This document shows positions 3,486 to 8,082 of a DNA stretch of 38,029 nucleotides, in pieces. Origin of the DNA: Lachnospiraceae bacterium (GTDB lineage: Bacteria; Bacillota; Clostridia; Lachnospirales; Lachnospiraceae); assembly GCA_021205385.1 (NCBI GenBank), contig JAJPXQ010000033.1:1-38029 (forward strand), written 5' to 3'. Each line of letters starts with the position of its first letter. Within the stretch, counting starts at the first letter, position 1. A program made the position numbers and the translations under genes. Under the pieces are notes generated by a model. The model did no database searches and was not told where the DNA came from. It was given only the letters and a program-made list of their open reading frames with translations.

Positions 3486-3516
3486 AAAGCCCGACGGAAA
3501 TGTCCCGTCGGGCTTT
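3486..3516 (+). terminator. Intrinsic terminator after the lipoprotein gene
   Basis: A perfect 12-bp stem AAAGCCCGACGG / CCGTCGGGCTTT surrounds a 7-base loop. It starts 36 bases after the lipoprotein stop codon. The T run is short (TTTC), so termination may be partial. The stem is symmetric, with A residues on the left, and could also act on leftward transcripts, though no leftward gene needs it. Confidence 0.75.
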
Positions 3517-3545: not shown

Positions 3546-3574
3546 TTGCCAAGGGGGTCTTCGGGTGCTATTAT
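3546..3574 (+). promoter_or_regulatory. Sigma-A type promoter for the GH13-like operon
   Basis: TTGCCA at 3546-3551 and TATTAT at 3569-3574 are separated by 17 bases. This is a good match to the housekeeping consensus, placed between the preceding terminator and the start codon at 3622. Confidence 0.55.
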
Positions 3575-3621
3575 ACATATAATTGGGTGTAGTATCGACT
3601 ACAGGAAAGAAGGAGAGGAGG

Positions 3622-5436
3622 ATGGCGATGTTCGAGTATCGTGTAAGCACCGGAGACCCGGAGCGGATGGGTGTGACGAAGGCAGGAAGAGACGTCTGTT
3701 TTACGGTAAGCGTGCAGGATGGACAGGACTGCAGCCTGATCCTCTATCAAAAGGGAACGGACGAGCCTGCAGTGGAGCTGCCATTTACGGATGAGATGCG
3801 TTTTGCAGATGTCTGCGCGATGCGGCTCCATCATTTTCCCCTGCAGGATTACGAGTATAATTACCGGACAGGCGGGCGCATTGTACAGGATCCTTATGCG
3901 GACGAGATTCGCGGACACAGGACCTGGGGCGCGGTTCCGGAAGGACCGCATGCGCTTCGCTGTGCCGCGCGCCCGGAGCGCTACCCCTGGCGGGGTGACA
4001 GACCGCTGCGCCTGGCGGAGGAAGACTGTGTTCTCTATGTGACGCATCCGCGCGGCTTCACGATGGACCGCTCATCGAAGGTGAAGCACCCCGGGACTTT
4101 CGCAGGCATTCGCGAGAAGATCCCCTACTTAAGAGAGCTGGGGATCACGCAGCTTGAACTGATGCCGGTCTACGAGTTTGCAGAGACCGGAGCTATAGAG
4201 AGCGGACGCAGGCATATGCCGTTGCGGAAACGAGGTGCGGCGATCAGCAATTACTGGGGCTATGGCGAGGCGTTTTTCTTTGCGCCAAAGGCGGCCTACA
4301 GCGCGTCGGAAGATCCGGTCCGGGAGTTGAAGGATCTGGTCCGCGAGCTTCACCGAAATGGAATCGAGCTGATCCTGGAGTTTTCTTTCCCGGAATACAC
4401 TTCTCCGGAGCTGGCGGTTGACTGTATCCGCCACTGGGTGCGCGATTATCATATTGACGGCGTCCATGTGACCGGAAGCGGCGCTCCGACTACCGCGCTT
4501 GCACTCGACCCGCTGTTGGGTGAGACCAGGATTATGAGCGATTACCTGCCGATGGAGCACATTTACGGGAGTGCCTATCGGCCGCGAAAGCGGCGGCTTC
4601 TTGAATATAACGATGATTTTCTGGGAAAGGTACGCCGCTTCCTGCGCGGTGATGCGGGTGTCGTATGGCAGATGGCAGAGTGCCTCTGTCGGAATCCGGC
4701 GCAGTATAACGTTGTAAATTACGTGGCGGGGCACAATGGCTTTACGCTGGCAGATGCGCTGCGTTACGAGCAGAAGCACAATGAAGCGAACGGAGAGGGA
4801 AATCTTGACGGAAGCGACCGGAATTACAGCTGCAATTATGGAACGGAGGGGCCATCCGACGTGCCGGAAGTGGAAGAGCTGCGTGCGAGACAGGCGAGGA
4901 ACGCGCTGCTGCTGACGATTCTGGCGCAGGGAGTCCCGGCGATTTACGGCGGCGACGAGATGGGAAATTCTCAGCAGGGAAATAACAACGTCTACTGTCA
5001 GGACAACGAGATTTCCTGGATTCAGTGGGCAAGCGATGAGAAGGGCCTTGCGCTGCAACGGTTTGTGAAGAAAGTGCTTGCGCTGCGCAGGGAGCATCCG
5101 GCGTTCCGGCAGAGACATACCCGTGTAGAAGGAACGCCGGCGATCTCCTATCATGGAAGCCGGGCGTGGTATGGCGATTTTGAGAACGACAGCCGTCATA
5201 TTGGCATTCTGTACGCGGGCGAGGAAGCGCTTTACGTGGCGATTAACATGCACGAGGAGGCGCTGGAGCTTGCCGTACCGAAGGCTCCGTCAGGACAGCG
5301 ATGGCAGATTATCGTGGATACCGGACAGGGAGAAGAGGCTTTTTCTGAGAATGGACCCGTGCTTTCACGAGAGACGGGTAAGACCGTGGAGATTCCGCCG
5401 CGGACAATTCTGGTGATGGCAGGAAGGAACGCATGA
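3622..5436 (+). CDS. GH13 isoamylase/glycogen-debranching-like protein, predicted catalytically inactive
   Basis: This 604-residue protein has the overall layout of a GlgX/isoamylase debranching enzyme: an N-terminal beta-sandwich (about residues 1-125), a TIM barrel, and a C-terminal beta domain. Family landmarks are clear, such as EKHNEANGEGNLDGSDRN, GVPAIYGGDEMG and QQGNNNVYCQDNEISW. The catalytic sites are not conserved. Region I (family DVVFNHT) reads EFSFPEY at 253-259. Region II (GFRFD, nucleophile Asp) reads GVHVT with Thr284. The region III acid (AEPWD) appears as SDYLP with Asp307. Region IV (HD) is HN at 371-372. It is therefore probably a carbohydrate-binding or regulatory pseudo-enzyme. 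AAGGAGAGGAGG at 3610-3621 could serve ATG 3622 or ATG 3628. The next gene overlaps its stop. Confidence 0.8.
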   Translation: MAMFEYRVSTGDPERMGVTKAGRDVCFTVSVQDGQDCSLILYQKGTDEPAVELPFTDEMRFADVCAMRLHHFPLQDYEYNYRTGGRIVQDPYADEIRGHRTWGAVPEGPHALRCAARPERYPWRGDRPLRLAEEDCVLYVTHPRGFTMDRSSKVKHPGTFAGIREKIPYLRELGITQLELMPVYEFAETGAIESGRRHMPLRKRGAAISNYWGYGEAFFFAPKAAYSASEDPVRELKDLVRELHRNGIELILEFSFPEYTSPELAVDCIRHWVRDYHIDGVHVTGSGAPTTALALDPLLGETRIMSDYLPMEHIYGSAYRPRKRRLLEYNDDFLGKVRRFLRGDAGVVWQMAECLCRNPAQYNVVNYVAGHNGFTLADALRYEQKHNEANGEGNLDGSDRNYSCNYGTEGPSDVPEVEELRARQARNALLLTILAQGVPAIYGGDEMGNSQQGNNNVYCQDNEISWIQWASDEKGLALQRFVKKVLALRREHPAFRQRHTRVEGTPAISYHGSRAWYGDFENDSRHIGILYAGEEALYVAINMHEEALELAVPKAPSGQRWQIIVDTGQGEEAFSENGPVLSRETGKTVEIPPRTILVMAGRNA

Positions 5437-6008
5437 AGCTGATTAATATATGGAGACATTTTTACACGATCACGGAGCATCGCCTCATGGTTGCGCGGCA
5501 CTGCTTCCGCGTGGGGATGTACTGGCAGGGGCTGACACACGACCTGTCCAAGTATTCGCCGTCTGAGTTCTGGCAGGGCTGCCGCTACTATCAGGGCTTT
5601 TGCAGCCCGAACAATGCGGAGCGCATGGATAAGGGATATTCCATTGCCTGGATGCACCACAAGGGCAGAAATAAACATCATTATGAATACTGGACGGACT
5701 ACAATGTGAAGACGCATCGCATGGAAGGCGTGAAGATGCCGCTCAGGTATGTAAATGAGATGATCATGGACCGGATTGCAGCCTCAAAGGTGTATGAGGG
5801 CGCAAAGTATACACAGCATTCTCCCCTGGCATATTATGAAAAAGGGAAGGACAGCTACATGATCCATCCGGAAACGAGCGCCCTGCTCGAATATGTCCTG
5901 CGCATGCTGGACAAGTATGGCGAAGAGCGGACCTTCGCCTGGATGAAAAAAAATATGGTTGGGAAGAAACGCTATCCCAATATCAGGAAAAGAGGAGTGA
6001 AGAAATGA
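5433..6008 (+). CDS. DUF5662 family protein
   Basis: A 191-residue soluble protein matching, from memory, the uncharacterised DUF5662 family of Firmicutes and phages. It is rich in conserved-looking His and aromatic residues. LTHDLSKYSPSEFW contains a His-Asp pair (36-37), and WMHHKGRNKHHYEYW carries four histidines (75, 76, 82, 83). Earlier histidines lie at 9, 16 and 23. That spacing is reminiscent of a metal-binding helical domain of HD type, but this is inference. No membrane segment or signal peptide is visible. Its ATG overlaps the TGA of the GH13-like gene (ATGA), and its own TGA overlaps the lrgA start in the same way, so it is translated as part of this operon. Function is unknown. 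Confidence 0.75.
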   Translation: MKLINIWRHFYTITEHRLMVARHCFRVGMYWQGLTHDLSKYSPSEFWQGCRYYQGFCSPNNAERMDKGYSIAWMHHKGRNKHHYEYWTDYNVKTHRMEGVKMPLRYVNEMIMDRIAASKVYEGAKYTQHSPLAYYEKGKDSYMIHPETSALLEYVLRMLDKYGEERTFAWMKKNMVGKKRYPNIRKRGVKK

Positions 6009-6373
6009 AATACATGCGTCAGATCGCGCGTATTGCGGGATTTGCCTTTGTCGGCGAGCTGCTCAATACGCTGATTCCGCTCCCGGTGCCGGCGAGCGTA
6101 TATGGCATGTTGCTGCTTCTGTTCTGCCTTTGTACGGGCATTGTAAAGCTGGAACAGATCGAGGAGACGGCGGATTTCCTGGTGGAGATCATGCCGCTGG
6201 TGTTTGTGATGCCGGGCGTCGCCGTGATAGAGTCCCTGGGGCTTCTGGCCGATTCGCTGGTGGGGATCATTGTGATCTCGATTCTGTCGACGCTGCTGGT
6301 CTACGCAGTGACCGGCCTGACAGCGCAGGCGCTGGTTCGCCTGCGGAGAAGAAGGGAGGAGCAGCATGGATAG
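6005..6373 (+). CDS. lrgA: CidA/LrgA family membrane protein
   Basis: A 122-residue integral membrane protein with four hydrophobic segments and a basic tail (LRRRREEQ). This is the size and topology of LrgA/CidA. The family motifs FVGELLNTLIPLPVPASVYGM near the N-terminus and FLVEIMPLVFVMPGVAVIES in the middle are recognisable. LrgA works with LrgB. The pair was described as holin/antiholin-like modulators of murein hydrolase activity and autolysis, and more recently as a pyruvate transport system in Bacillus and Streptococcus. The start overlaps the upstream stop, with AGGAG at 5993-5997, and the lrgB start lies inside the end of this gene. Confidence 0.9.
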   Translation: MKYMRQIARIAGFAFVGELLNTLIPLPVPASVYGMLLLLFCLCTGIVKLEQIEETADFLVEIMPLVFVMPGVAVIESLGLLADSLVGIIVISILSTLLVYAVTGLTAQALVRLRRRREEQHG

Positions 6374-7058
6374 TTTACTGCAGGAATCCCTGTTCTTTGG
6401 CTTCTTCCTGACACTTGCCTGTTATTTTGCCTGCGTGGAGATCGCAAAGCGTTACAAAAGCCCGCTTCTGAATCCCCTGTTCTGGTCGATCGTGCTGACG
6501 ATCGTAGTATTGAAGCTTCTGGGAATCAGTTACAGTACGTTTGAGTATGGGGCGAAATACCTTAATTATCTGCTGACGCCGATCACGGTCTGCCTGGCGG
6601 TGCCCCTGTACCGGCAGCTGCGGCTCCTGCGGGATTACGCGGATGCGGTGATCATCAGCATTCTGTCAGGGACGCTGGCCTGTGCGGCGATGATCTTTCT
6701 GATGTCAAAGATGTTCGGTTTCGACAAGTCGATGTACGCATCCATGGCGGTAAAGTCGATCACGACTGCGATTGCGCTTGGGGTAAATGAGGAACTCGGC
6801 GGTATTCAGGTCGTATCGATCATGGCGATCACGATCACCGGTACGATCGGCCCGATTTTCGCAACGTCCGTCTATAAGCTGCTGCACATCAAAGAACCGA
6901 TTGCACAGGGCCTGGCGCTCGGAACCGGTTCCCATGCGATTGGGACAAGCCGCGCGCTGGAGCTGGGCGAGATCCAGGGGGCAATGAGCAGTCTGGCGAT
7001 TGTCGTAACCGGTGTGCTTACGGTGATCATTGCACCGATTCTGTACAGTATTTATTAG
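6366..7058 (+). CDS. lrgB: LrgB family membrane protein
   Basis: A 230-residue polytopic membrane protein with about seven hydrophobic segments, full length for LrgB/CidB. The diagnostic stretch KSITTAIALGVNEELGG at about residue 129 and the later LGTGSHAIGTSRALELGE are characteristic of the family. It overlaps lrgA by 8 bases and presumably forms the LrgAB unit affecting autolysis or three-carbon acid transport. The usual LytSR regulatory pair is not next to it in this window. Control here is more likely through the operon promoter at 3546 or an unseen internal one. Confidence 0.92.
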   Translation: MDSLLQESLFFGFFLTLACYFACVEIAKRYKSPLLNPLFWSIVLTIVVLKLLGISYSTFEYGAKYLNYLLTPITVCLAVPLYRQLRLLRDYADAVIISILSGTLACAAMIFLMSKMFGFDKSMYASMAVKSITTAIALGVNEELGGIQVVSIMAITITGTIGPIFATSVYKLLHIKEPIAQGLALGTGSHAIGTSRALELGEIQGAMSSLAIVVTGVLTVIIAPILYSIY

Positions 7059-7074
7059 GAAAGGAGGGAGGCCG

Positions 7075-8082
7075 GTGACGATCCGTGAAAAAACAGAGGA
7101 ATGGGAGTGCCGTTTCTTAAGTCCCTATGCGGCGAGGAGCCGCGATTCACGGGGACGGGCTCTGGACGAGCCTCCCTGTGAGATCCGGCCGGTCTATCAG
7201 CGCGACCGCGATCGTATCCTGCACTGCAAATCGTTTCGCAGACTGAAGCATAAGACGCAGGTGTTTCTCGCGCCGAAGGGCGATCATTACCGGACGCGCC
7301 TGACGCACACGCTGGAGGTCTCGCAGGTCGCGCGGACGATCGCGCGTGCACTCCGCCTGAATGAAGATCTGACCGAGGCGATTGCGCTTGGACATGATCT
7401 TGGGCATACGCCTTTCGGTCATGCGGGCGAGCGGGTACTGAACCGGGTCTGCTCGGAGGGCTTCGCCCATTACATACAGAGCGTCCGGGTCGTGGAAAAG
7501 CTCGAAAAAGAGGGCCGTGGACTGAATCTTTCCTGGGAAGTCCGCGACGGGATCCGGCAGCACCAGATGGATGGTCGCGCAGCCACGCTGGAGGGCCGGG
7601 TCGTGCGGCTTGCGGACAAGATCGCCTATATCCATCATGATGTAGATGACGCGATCCGCGGAGGTATCATCCGGGAGGAGGATATCCCGGAGATGTACCG
7701 TGTGACACTGGGACGGTCAGGCCGGGAACGCCTGAACACGATGGTCTGCGACATTATCACGACCAGTCTCGATCAGCCGGATATCCGGATGTCGGATGAG
7801 GTGGACGCGGCGTTTCGCGGCATCCGGCGTTTCATGTTTGAGAATGTCTATACGAATCCGGTTGCGAAGGCGGAGGAAAAGAAGGCGGAGAACATTGTGA
7901 GTGAACTGTTCCATTATTATATGGAACGTCCGGAGCTGCTCTCCAACGAATATATCGAACGCATGTGGAAGGCAGGCGAGACGCAGGAGCGGAGCGTCTG
8001 CGACTATATCTCCGGGATGACCGACCAGTTTGCCATCGACAAATTCCGGGAGTTTTTCGTGCCGGAGGCATGGAGATACTGA
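7075..8082 (+). CDS. dgt: Deoxyguanosinetriphosphate triphosphohydrolase-like protein (HD hydrolase)
   Basis: A 335-residue HD-superfamily enzyme of the dGTPase-like family, which removes triphosphate from dNTPs and so affects nucleotide pools. The metal site is visible: RTRLTHTLEV (His78), then ALGHDLGHTPFGHAGE (His107-Asp108 followed by further His). The N-terminal RDRDRILHCKSFRRLKHKTQV is typical of the family. The GTG start at 7075 follows the strong AGGAGGGAGG at 7061-7070; an in-frame upstream extension inside lrgB is less likely. This gene sits immediately before dnaG, a common arrangement in Clostridia that links it with replication. Confidence 0.9.
   Translation: MTIREKTEEWECRFLSPYAARSRDSRGRALDEPPCEIRPVYQRDRDRILHCKSFRRLKHKTQVFLAPKGDHYRTRLTHTLEVSQVARTIARALRLNEDLTEAIALGHDLGHTPFGHAGERVLNRVCSEGFAHYIQSVRVVEKLEKEGRGLNLSWEVRDGIRQHQMDGRAATLEGRVVRLADKIAYIHHDVDDAIRGGIIREEDIPEMYRVTLGRSGRERLNTMVCDIITTSLDQPDIRMSDEVDAAFRGIRRFMFENVYTNPVAKAEEKKAENIVSELFHYYMERPELLSNEYIERMWKAGETQERSVCDYISGMTDQFAIDKFREFFVPEAWRY

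Follow-up and report, generated by a model that had tools for sequence, protein, structure and literature searches.

The window, the whole 38,029-nucleotide stretch of Lachnospiraceae DNA analysed here, carries on its forward strand at 3622-5436 a gene for an isoamylase/GlgX-like GH13 protein of 604 amino acids that lacks the catalytic triad of these enzymes. The question raised by this locus is whether such a protein represents the decay of a single gene copy, an enzyme whose site has moved, or a product kept for another task, and what that task may be.

An isoamylase-like protein with an altered active site

The reading frame is intact from ATG 3622 to the stop at 5434-5436 (604 codons, by ORF and translation check), and a 617-aa frame opening at TTG 3583 would add 13 in-frame codons upstream of this ATG. 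A ribosome-binding-site-like AAGGAG (3610-3615, forward strand) precedes the ATG by 6 nt, and on both frame and ribosome binding site the initial annotation was right. The promoter that it also claimed fares less well: a sigma-70-like match is present on the forward strand (TTGCCA-17-TATTAT, 3546-3574, with TG before the -10), and as a consensus match it is weak evidence alone, since five such sites occur between 3400 and 6500 against 2.1 expected. Between the upstream gene and this site, at about 3487-3515, lies a GC-rich, terminator-like hairpin (-23.1 kcal/mol, z -3.55), which was not among the reports of a terminator scan.

Homology to isoamylase and GlgX covers the barrel and the C-terminal domain, as seen in two Pfam matches above cut-off (Alpha-amylase, 38.4 bits with a cut-off of 22; ISOA1-3_C, 27.6 with 27.3) and in profile alignments to chloroplast isoamylase 1 (ISA1) and GlgX, the closest solved relatives. 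In the profile alignment the N-terminus corresponds to the CBM48 part of ISA1; the CBM_48 model itself matched 11 of 44 family members at E up to 0.01 and gave no match in the window protein. A search of PHROG likewise returned no match for the protein, and a phage origin was dropped on that account.

The active site was read against L002, a catalytically intact isoamylase paralogue from the same genome, together with 19 other active isoamylases. At the places where L002 has VILDVVFNHT, GFRFDLASI, LIAEAWDAGG and FITCHDGF, the window protein has LILEFSFPEY, GVHVTGSGA, IMSDYLPM and YVAGHNGF. Region I (4378-4398, this and the following all on the forward strand) reads E253-F-S-F-P-E-Y259 for D-V-V-F-N-H-T; region II (4447-4473) reads YHIDGVHV-T284, with Thr at the nucleophile position; region III has Asp307 (4540-4542) at the position of the general-acid Glu; and region IV has His371-Asn372 (4732-4737) for His-Asp. 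T284, D307 and N372 stand on the alignment columns of nucleophile, acid and stabiliser, roles held in GH13 enzymes by Asp, Glu (as acid/base) and Asp, respectively, according to passages of PMC11046441. The D/E/D triad that marks a catalytic isoamylase or GlgX is thus absent from the window protein.

All four of these changes had been called in the initial annotation, and the alignment to active isoamylases bears them out. Its broader claim, that every catalytic residue had been lost, is correct for the triad and is not literally true of the active site, because His371 is retained. A larger lesion had been overlooked: relative to active isoamylases the protein is short of about 44 residues immediately behind region I and of about 14 behind region II, two points at which its alignment with solved ISA1 and GlgX is interrupted. 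Because the residues of the former cleavage subsite have been lost, this site cannot hold sugar as it once did, which counts against a glucan-binding role for the protein. Elsewhere in the sequence, around residues 501-502 and before a SYHGxxAW stretch, the window protein and its closest relatives in the genus (L205-L209) lack six residues, among them an Asp conserved at 99% in the rest of the triad-less clade.

Occurrence and conservation within the Lachnospiraceae

In a sample of 120 genomes from 120 genera of the Lachnospiraceae, one per genus and each at least 95% complete, the window protein found matches at 1e-20 in 104 genomes; 103 are carriers of the triad-less form, the remaining genome (G004) being left out since its sole match is of the active type. 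The D/E/D triad occurs in none of the 103 copies. Both deletions are common to all of them, with 15-17 residues between regions I and II, as against 61 in the 19 active rows, and 25-26 between regions II and III, as against 40 in active forms. At the nucleophile column Asp is absent from 102 copies (one of these has a gap there); the single copy that has it, L201 in G005, lacks both the acid and region I. Drift is seen at the acid and stabiliser columns, with Glu at the former in 12 of 103 copies, Asp at the latter in 25, and both together in two (L173 and L181). Two loci, L192 and L203, are truncated at the end of a contig. The initial annotation had proposed to look for Lachnospiraceae orthologues with the same changes, and the sample supplies a family of triad-less copies; its treatment of the locus as one odd gene is not borne out.

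The same picture emerged from other collections. The best 30 loci of 299 genomes of the family (the window and 29 others) all share the lesion, and all 17 genomes of the window's own genus carry the gene. The best 80 of 588 in a search of named genomes comprised 61 triad-less proteins and 19 active isoamylases, the latter including representatives from Nostoc, Streptomyces, Dyadobacter, Phocaeicola and Butyrivibrio. The 61 triad-less loci come from assemblies titled Lachnospiraceae, from genera that we take to belong to that family, or from unresolved Clostridia, Eubacterium and Bacillota assemblies. Alignment of these 80 proteins with L001, L002 and L004-L032 (111 in total) separated 91 triad-less from 20 active forms with no intermediates, L081 being counted as active although its region IV is an alignment gap, since in the remaining motifs and in spacing it agrees with active enzymes. 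Frames of some members are longer, up to 863 aa. Two sets were used, the window with its 29 best-scoring relatives (A1) and the window with 43 of the 61 triad-less named loci (A2). The combined 183 triad-less rows include four near-identical pairs, due to overlap of two collections; no such pair falls inside the sample of 103 copies or among the 61 triad-less named loci.

Beyond the family the triad-less form was not encountered. Of the 393 genomes sampled across the class, about 20 belong to the family, and 18 of these matched at 1e-75 (of the 17 besides the window, part were read residue by residue); a triad-less match was found in none of about 373 genomes outside it. Matches at 1e-35 came from seven of these outside genomes, and all seven were classed as active on how they matched (a break at residues 257/263 and frames of 676-752 aa).

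In a tree built with regions I-IV removed, from 50 of the 183 triad-less rows (four chosen and 46 random) and all 20 active ones, the two forms fall on the two sides of one branch (SH-aLRT 100). The gene is being kept and is not decaying. Relative to its five closest copies in the genus, 77-98% identical, the window gene shows dN/dS of 0.10, 0.13, 0.12, 0.12 and 0.10 at dS 0.12-1.39 (NG86, with frames taken between stops); five more distant copies of the genus give 0.16-0.23 at saturated dS of 1.5-2.2, five further pairs 0.09-0.24, and the comparison with L213 no usable dS. Triad-less and active forms share 57 columns in which each group is conserved to at least 93%, and the remaining protein thus keeps the isoamylase core.

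The pattern of conserved acids speaks to whether a substitute site has been built. Across the 183 triad-less rows 15 columns hold an acid at 85% or more; 12 of them are also 90-100% conserved in the 20 active forms, whereas acids at the remaining three (D344, D507 and a column missing from the window protein) are present in 40-65% of those forms. No acid conserved only in the triad-less clade, and hence a possible replacement for the triad, was found in this comparison of 183 with 20 rows, and a relocated triad was rejected for that reason. The proposal of a maintained pseudo-enzyme is upheld by the breadth of its occurrence, the uniform loss of the triad, the single branch, the low dN/dS and the lack of an acid peculiar to the clade. 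Judged from these sequence comparisons, the protein is very probably non-catalytic as a glycosidase.

Gene neighbourhood and glycogen metabolism

Directly downstream, at 5433-6008 on the forward strand, lies a gene for a 191-aa DUF5662 protein (PF18907, 123.6 bits with a cut-off of 27), whose start overlaps the stop of the triad-less gene (ATGA); at the E threshold applied, the model also recognises all 39 aligned proteins of this kind. DUF5662 is the next gene downstream in 58 of the 91 genomes that hold both (match ends within 304 bp in 45 of these pairs and at 671-879 bp in 13), and it lies downstream in 38 of the 61 named triad-less loci, 32 of them within 100 bp. It is found within the flank in 21 of the 29 loci L004-L032 and in all 11 fetched loci of the genus, and beside none of the 19 named active isoamylases, a test made on fetched flanks that did not include the own-genome paralogue L002. 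In L038, L043, L077, L080, L091 and L108 the two genes are separated by one for a membrane protein that by eye is TraX-like.

The gene after DUF5662 varies within the genus, being either lrgAB or an HD-domain gene. In the window (5433-8082) and some of L205-L215, lrgA-lrgB lie between DUF5662 and the HD-domain, dnaG and rpoD genes; in other loci of the genus the HD gene follows DUF5662 directly, indicating that lrgAB was either inserted or lost here. Part of the adjacency is inherited gene order, as DUF5662 is kept in 24 of 28 named loci with a helicase gene upstream versus 11 of 26 without (seven of the 61 were not judged). Across the 120 genomes 91 hold both genes, 12 the triad-less isoamylase only, 12 DUF5662 only and five neither, an association that is not significant (p 0.07). 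An obligatory partnership was rejected on these two grounds.

Residues invariant in DUF5662 are H16, H36-D37, H75-H76, H82-H83 and D113, a His/Asp pattern which by eye we take to resemble that of metal-binding hydrolases such as the HD superfamily. Sequence searches of PDB and Pfam gave no HD-family match and so did not confirm the resemblance, and NCBIfam gave one weak stray match in one of 39 members. One PHROG family, the unnamed phrog_20637, is related to DUF5662, and weaker extra DUF5662 matches in G136, G149 and G046 are perhaps located on prophages. No paper on DUF5662 was found in the open-licence PMC literature.

The triad-less gene is not located beside glycogen genes; its upstream neighbours in many named loci are gltX-like, helicase-like and DUF1292-like (names by eye). 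Glycogen synthase GlgA is present in 119 of 120 genomes and in 102 of 103 carriers, which says little, since GlgA is nearly universal in the family; as all 17 non-carriers have GlgA too, the triad-less isoamylase is dispensable for keeping the genes of glycogen synthesis. Two genes for glycogen synthase, G000:C153 and G000:C142, both above the family cut-off, occur in the genome of the window itself.

Debranching enzymes are distributed more sparsely. An active isoamylase was found in 40 of the 120 genomes (best E below 1e-200 with L002 as query), type I pullulanase above cut-off in 28 and GDE_C in 21, so that the triad-less protein is more widespread than each debranching family searched. Of the 40 genomes with an active isoamylase, 39 also hold the triad-less form (Fisher p 0.01), the window's own genome among them; conversely, 64 of the 103 carriers gave no active isoamylase match, and 46 gave no match to any of the three families. 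At least one of these families is present in 57 of 103 carriers versus four of 17 non-carriers (p 0.02), and no association across the 120 genomes was seen with pullulanase (p 0.76) or GDE_C (p 0.30) individually. In 59 of the 120 genomes GlgA occurs while none of these three debranching families gave a match.

Parallels and possible roles

The closest parallel is ISA2 of plants and green algae, described in passages of PMC12510319 as a non-catalytic isoamylase that has lost its nucleophile, binds ISA1 and has noncatalytic functions, and whose nucleophile position varies throughout green plants and algae. Like ISA2 as portrayed there, the bacterial form is an isoamylase paralogue that lost its nucleophile and other catalytic residues early in its lineage and has been kept since, the loss extending here across 103 copies. 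It differs in being bacterial, confined in the class sample to one family, in its two large deletions around the active site, and in often occurring without an active paralogue. The extra N-terminal beta-sandwich domain of ISA2 (PMC12510319, same passages) is also absent from the window protein, which has no long N-terminal extension, position 7 of the profile aligning near the start of ISA1. The missing domain and the frequent lack of an active partner are why we do not file the protein as ISA2. A profile of the triad-less family scores 436 bits with ISA1, 402 with GlgX (2vnc), 223 with ISA2 and 210 with 1bf2, an active isoamylase of the Pseudomonas type. Since an active enzyme thus scores only 210, the values hint at an origin separate from ISA2 but do not establish it.

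With GlgX and the bacterial isoamylases (GH13_11) the family shares homology over the whole length and the 57 conserved columns; it differs from them in lacking the triad, in the two deletions, and in a score of the window protein with the GlgX model TIGR02100 of 301.1 bits, under its cut-off of 640.9. More remote analogies are offered by GlgD, a regulatory subunit that stands beside catalytic GlgC in bacterial glycogen metabolism (PMC10395257, in part) but belongs to another enzyme family and works in ADP-glucose synthesis, and by BETA-AMYLASE9, an amylase-family protein described in a portion of PMC8774843 as a nonenzymatic regulator of starch degradation, which is a plant plastid beta-amylase and again of another enzyme family. 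Two glgX homologues are noted for Blautia obeum in a section of PMC10395257. Inactive GH13 proteins of prokaryotes are not wholly unmentioned, since the legend of an archaeal glycogen-gene table, in the excerpt of PMC11046441 cited above, marks "one inactive isoform" in its GH13 column. No description of a triad-less bacterial isoamylase was found among the papers listed in searches of the open-licence PMC literature, judged mostly by titles and the openings of abstracts.

By analogy with plant ISA2 and with the regulatory GlgD, we favour the view, to which we give a probability of roughly 0.6, that the protein binds alpha-glucan and, without catalysis, serves glycogen metabolism as a regulator or scaffold. 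The glycan sensor or scaffold suggested in the initial annotation would be compatible with this. Taken by itself, a role somewhere in glycogen metabolism is likely. Glycan binding, the regulatory or scaffolding role and the partners are what we infer; that most sampled genera keep the same altered version makes a non-cutting job in glycogen metabolism probable. In an ancestor within the family, an isoamylase/GlgX-type gene would have lost its triad and the two active-site stretches of about 44 and 14 residues, the rest of the protein having since been kept under purifying selection. Such a protein would not be expected to hydrolyse alpha-1,6 bonds by the GH13 mechanism. It probably binds alpha-glucan, namely endogenous glycogen, through the retained barrel surface and the CBM48-like N-terminus, and modulates or positions other proteins of glycogen metabolism, as ISA2 does in plants. 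The link to glycogen is drawn from GlgA in 119 of 120 genomes, from the 57 shared columns and from the closeness to solved ISA1 and GlgX. Further points weigh against this reading: the CBM_48 match in only 11 of 44 members, the presence of GlgA in all 17 non-carriers, the location of the gene away from glycogen genes, and the residues at the acid and stabiliser columns of L173 and L181.

The competing explanations differ chiefly in what the protein would act with or upon, and the odds of the favoured reading overlap with those of two of them, which are in part its special cases. That the protein forms a module with DUF5662, in which it directs the pair to glycan and DUF5662 supplies the activity, is rather unlikely. 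This idea draws on the adjacency (58 of 91 genomes, 38 of 61 named triad-less loci, 21 of 29 loci L004-L032) and its absence from the 19 active loci, on the persistence of the pair in all 11 loci of the genus although the following gene differs there, on the overlap of start and stop in the window, and on the invariant His/Asp residues; it is weakened by the inherited component of this order, by the non-significant association across genomes, and by the want of an HD-family match by sequence. A more specific and distinctly doubtful version would have the protein dock DUF5662, as a metal-dependent hydrolase, on glycogen, there to remove a modification or bound ligand. If true, this docking pair would belong to the core storage-carbon physiology of the family, and its likeness to a debranching enzyme would have concealed it so far. 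A strict ISA2-like subunit, acting only as a heteromer with the active isoamylase or GlgX of the same cell, is improbable: the co-occurrence in 39 of 40 genomes and in the window's own, together with the presence of both plant ISA1 and ISA2 chains in entries 9j6x and 9xvi, would fit it, but only 39 of 103 carriers hold an active isoamylase, so that an obligate heteromer of the ISA1/ISA2 type cannot explain the family, and 46 have none of the three debranching families.

Continued enzymatic activity, with a catalytic site that is relocated or of a different kind, is very unlikely. Those 46 carriers do leave room for something else to debranch their glycogen, and Glu stands at the acid column in 12 of 103 copies; yet other GH13 enzymes may debranch in these genomes, the catalytic columns vary freely with no acid conserved only in the triad-less clade, and carriers have at least one debranching family more often than non-carriers (57 of 103 versus four of 17), the opposite of what would be expected of a substitute enzyme. 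Lastly, a pseudogene decaying in one genome, to which the loss of catalytic residues might at first point, is ruled out for practical purposes by the intact frame, dN/dS of about 0.1, and a lesion shared by all 103 copies, each from another genus.

In contrast to the non-catalytic isoamylase known from plants and green algae, the present lineage is bacterial, and the frequent absence of an active paralogue from its carriers, which nearly all have glycogen synthase genes, points to a function for which a catalytic isoamylase is not required. Annotation is affected as well: if every isoamylase homologue were taken for glgX, many of these genomes would be assigned a debranching enzyme in a protein that should have no cutting activity, and in 46 of the 103 carriers none of the other three families searched gave a match. 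Why non-catalytic ISA2 is still selected "is not understood", in the words of a passage of PMC12510319, and a second lineage of triad-less isoamylases would make this question of retention testable in a simpler, bacterial system.
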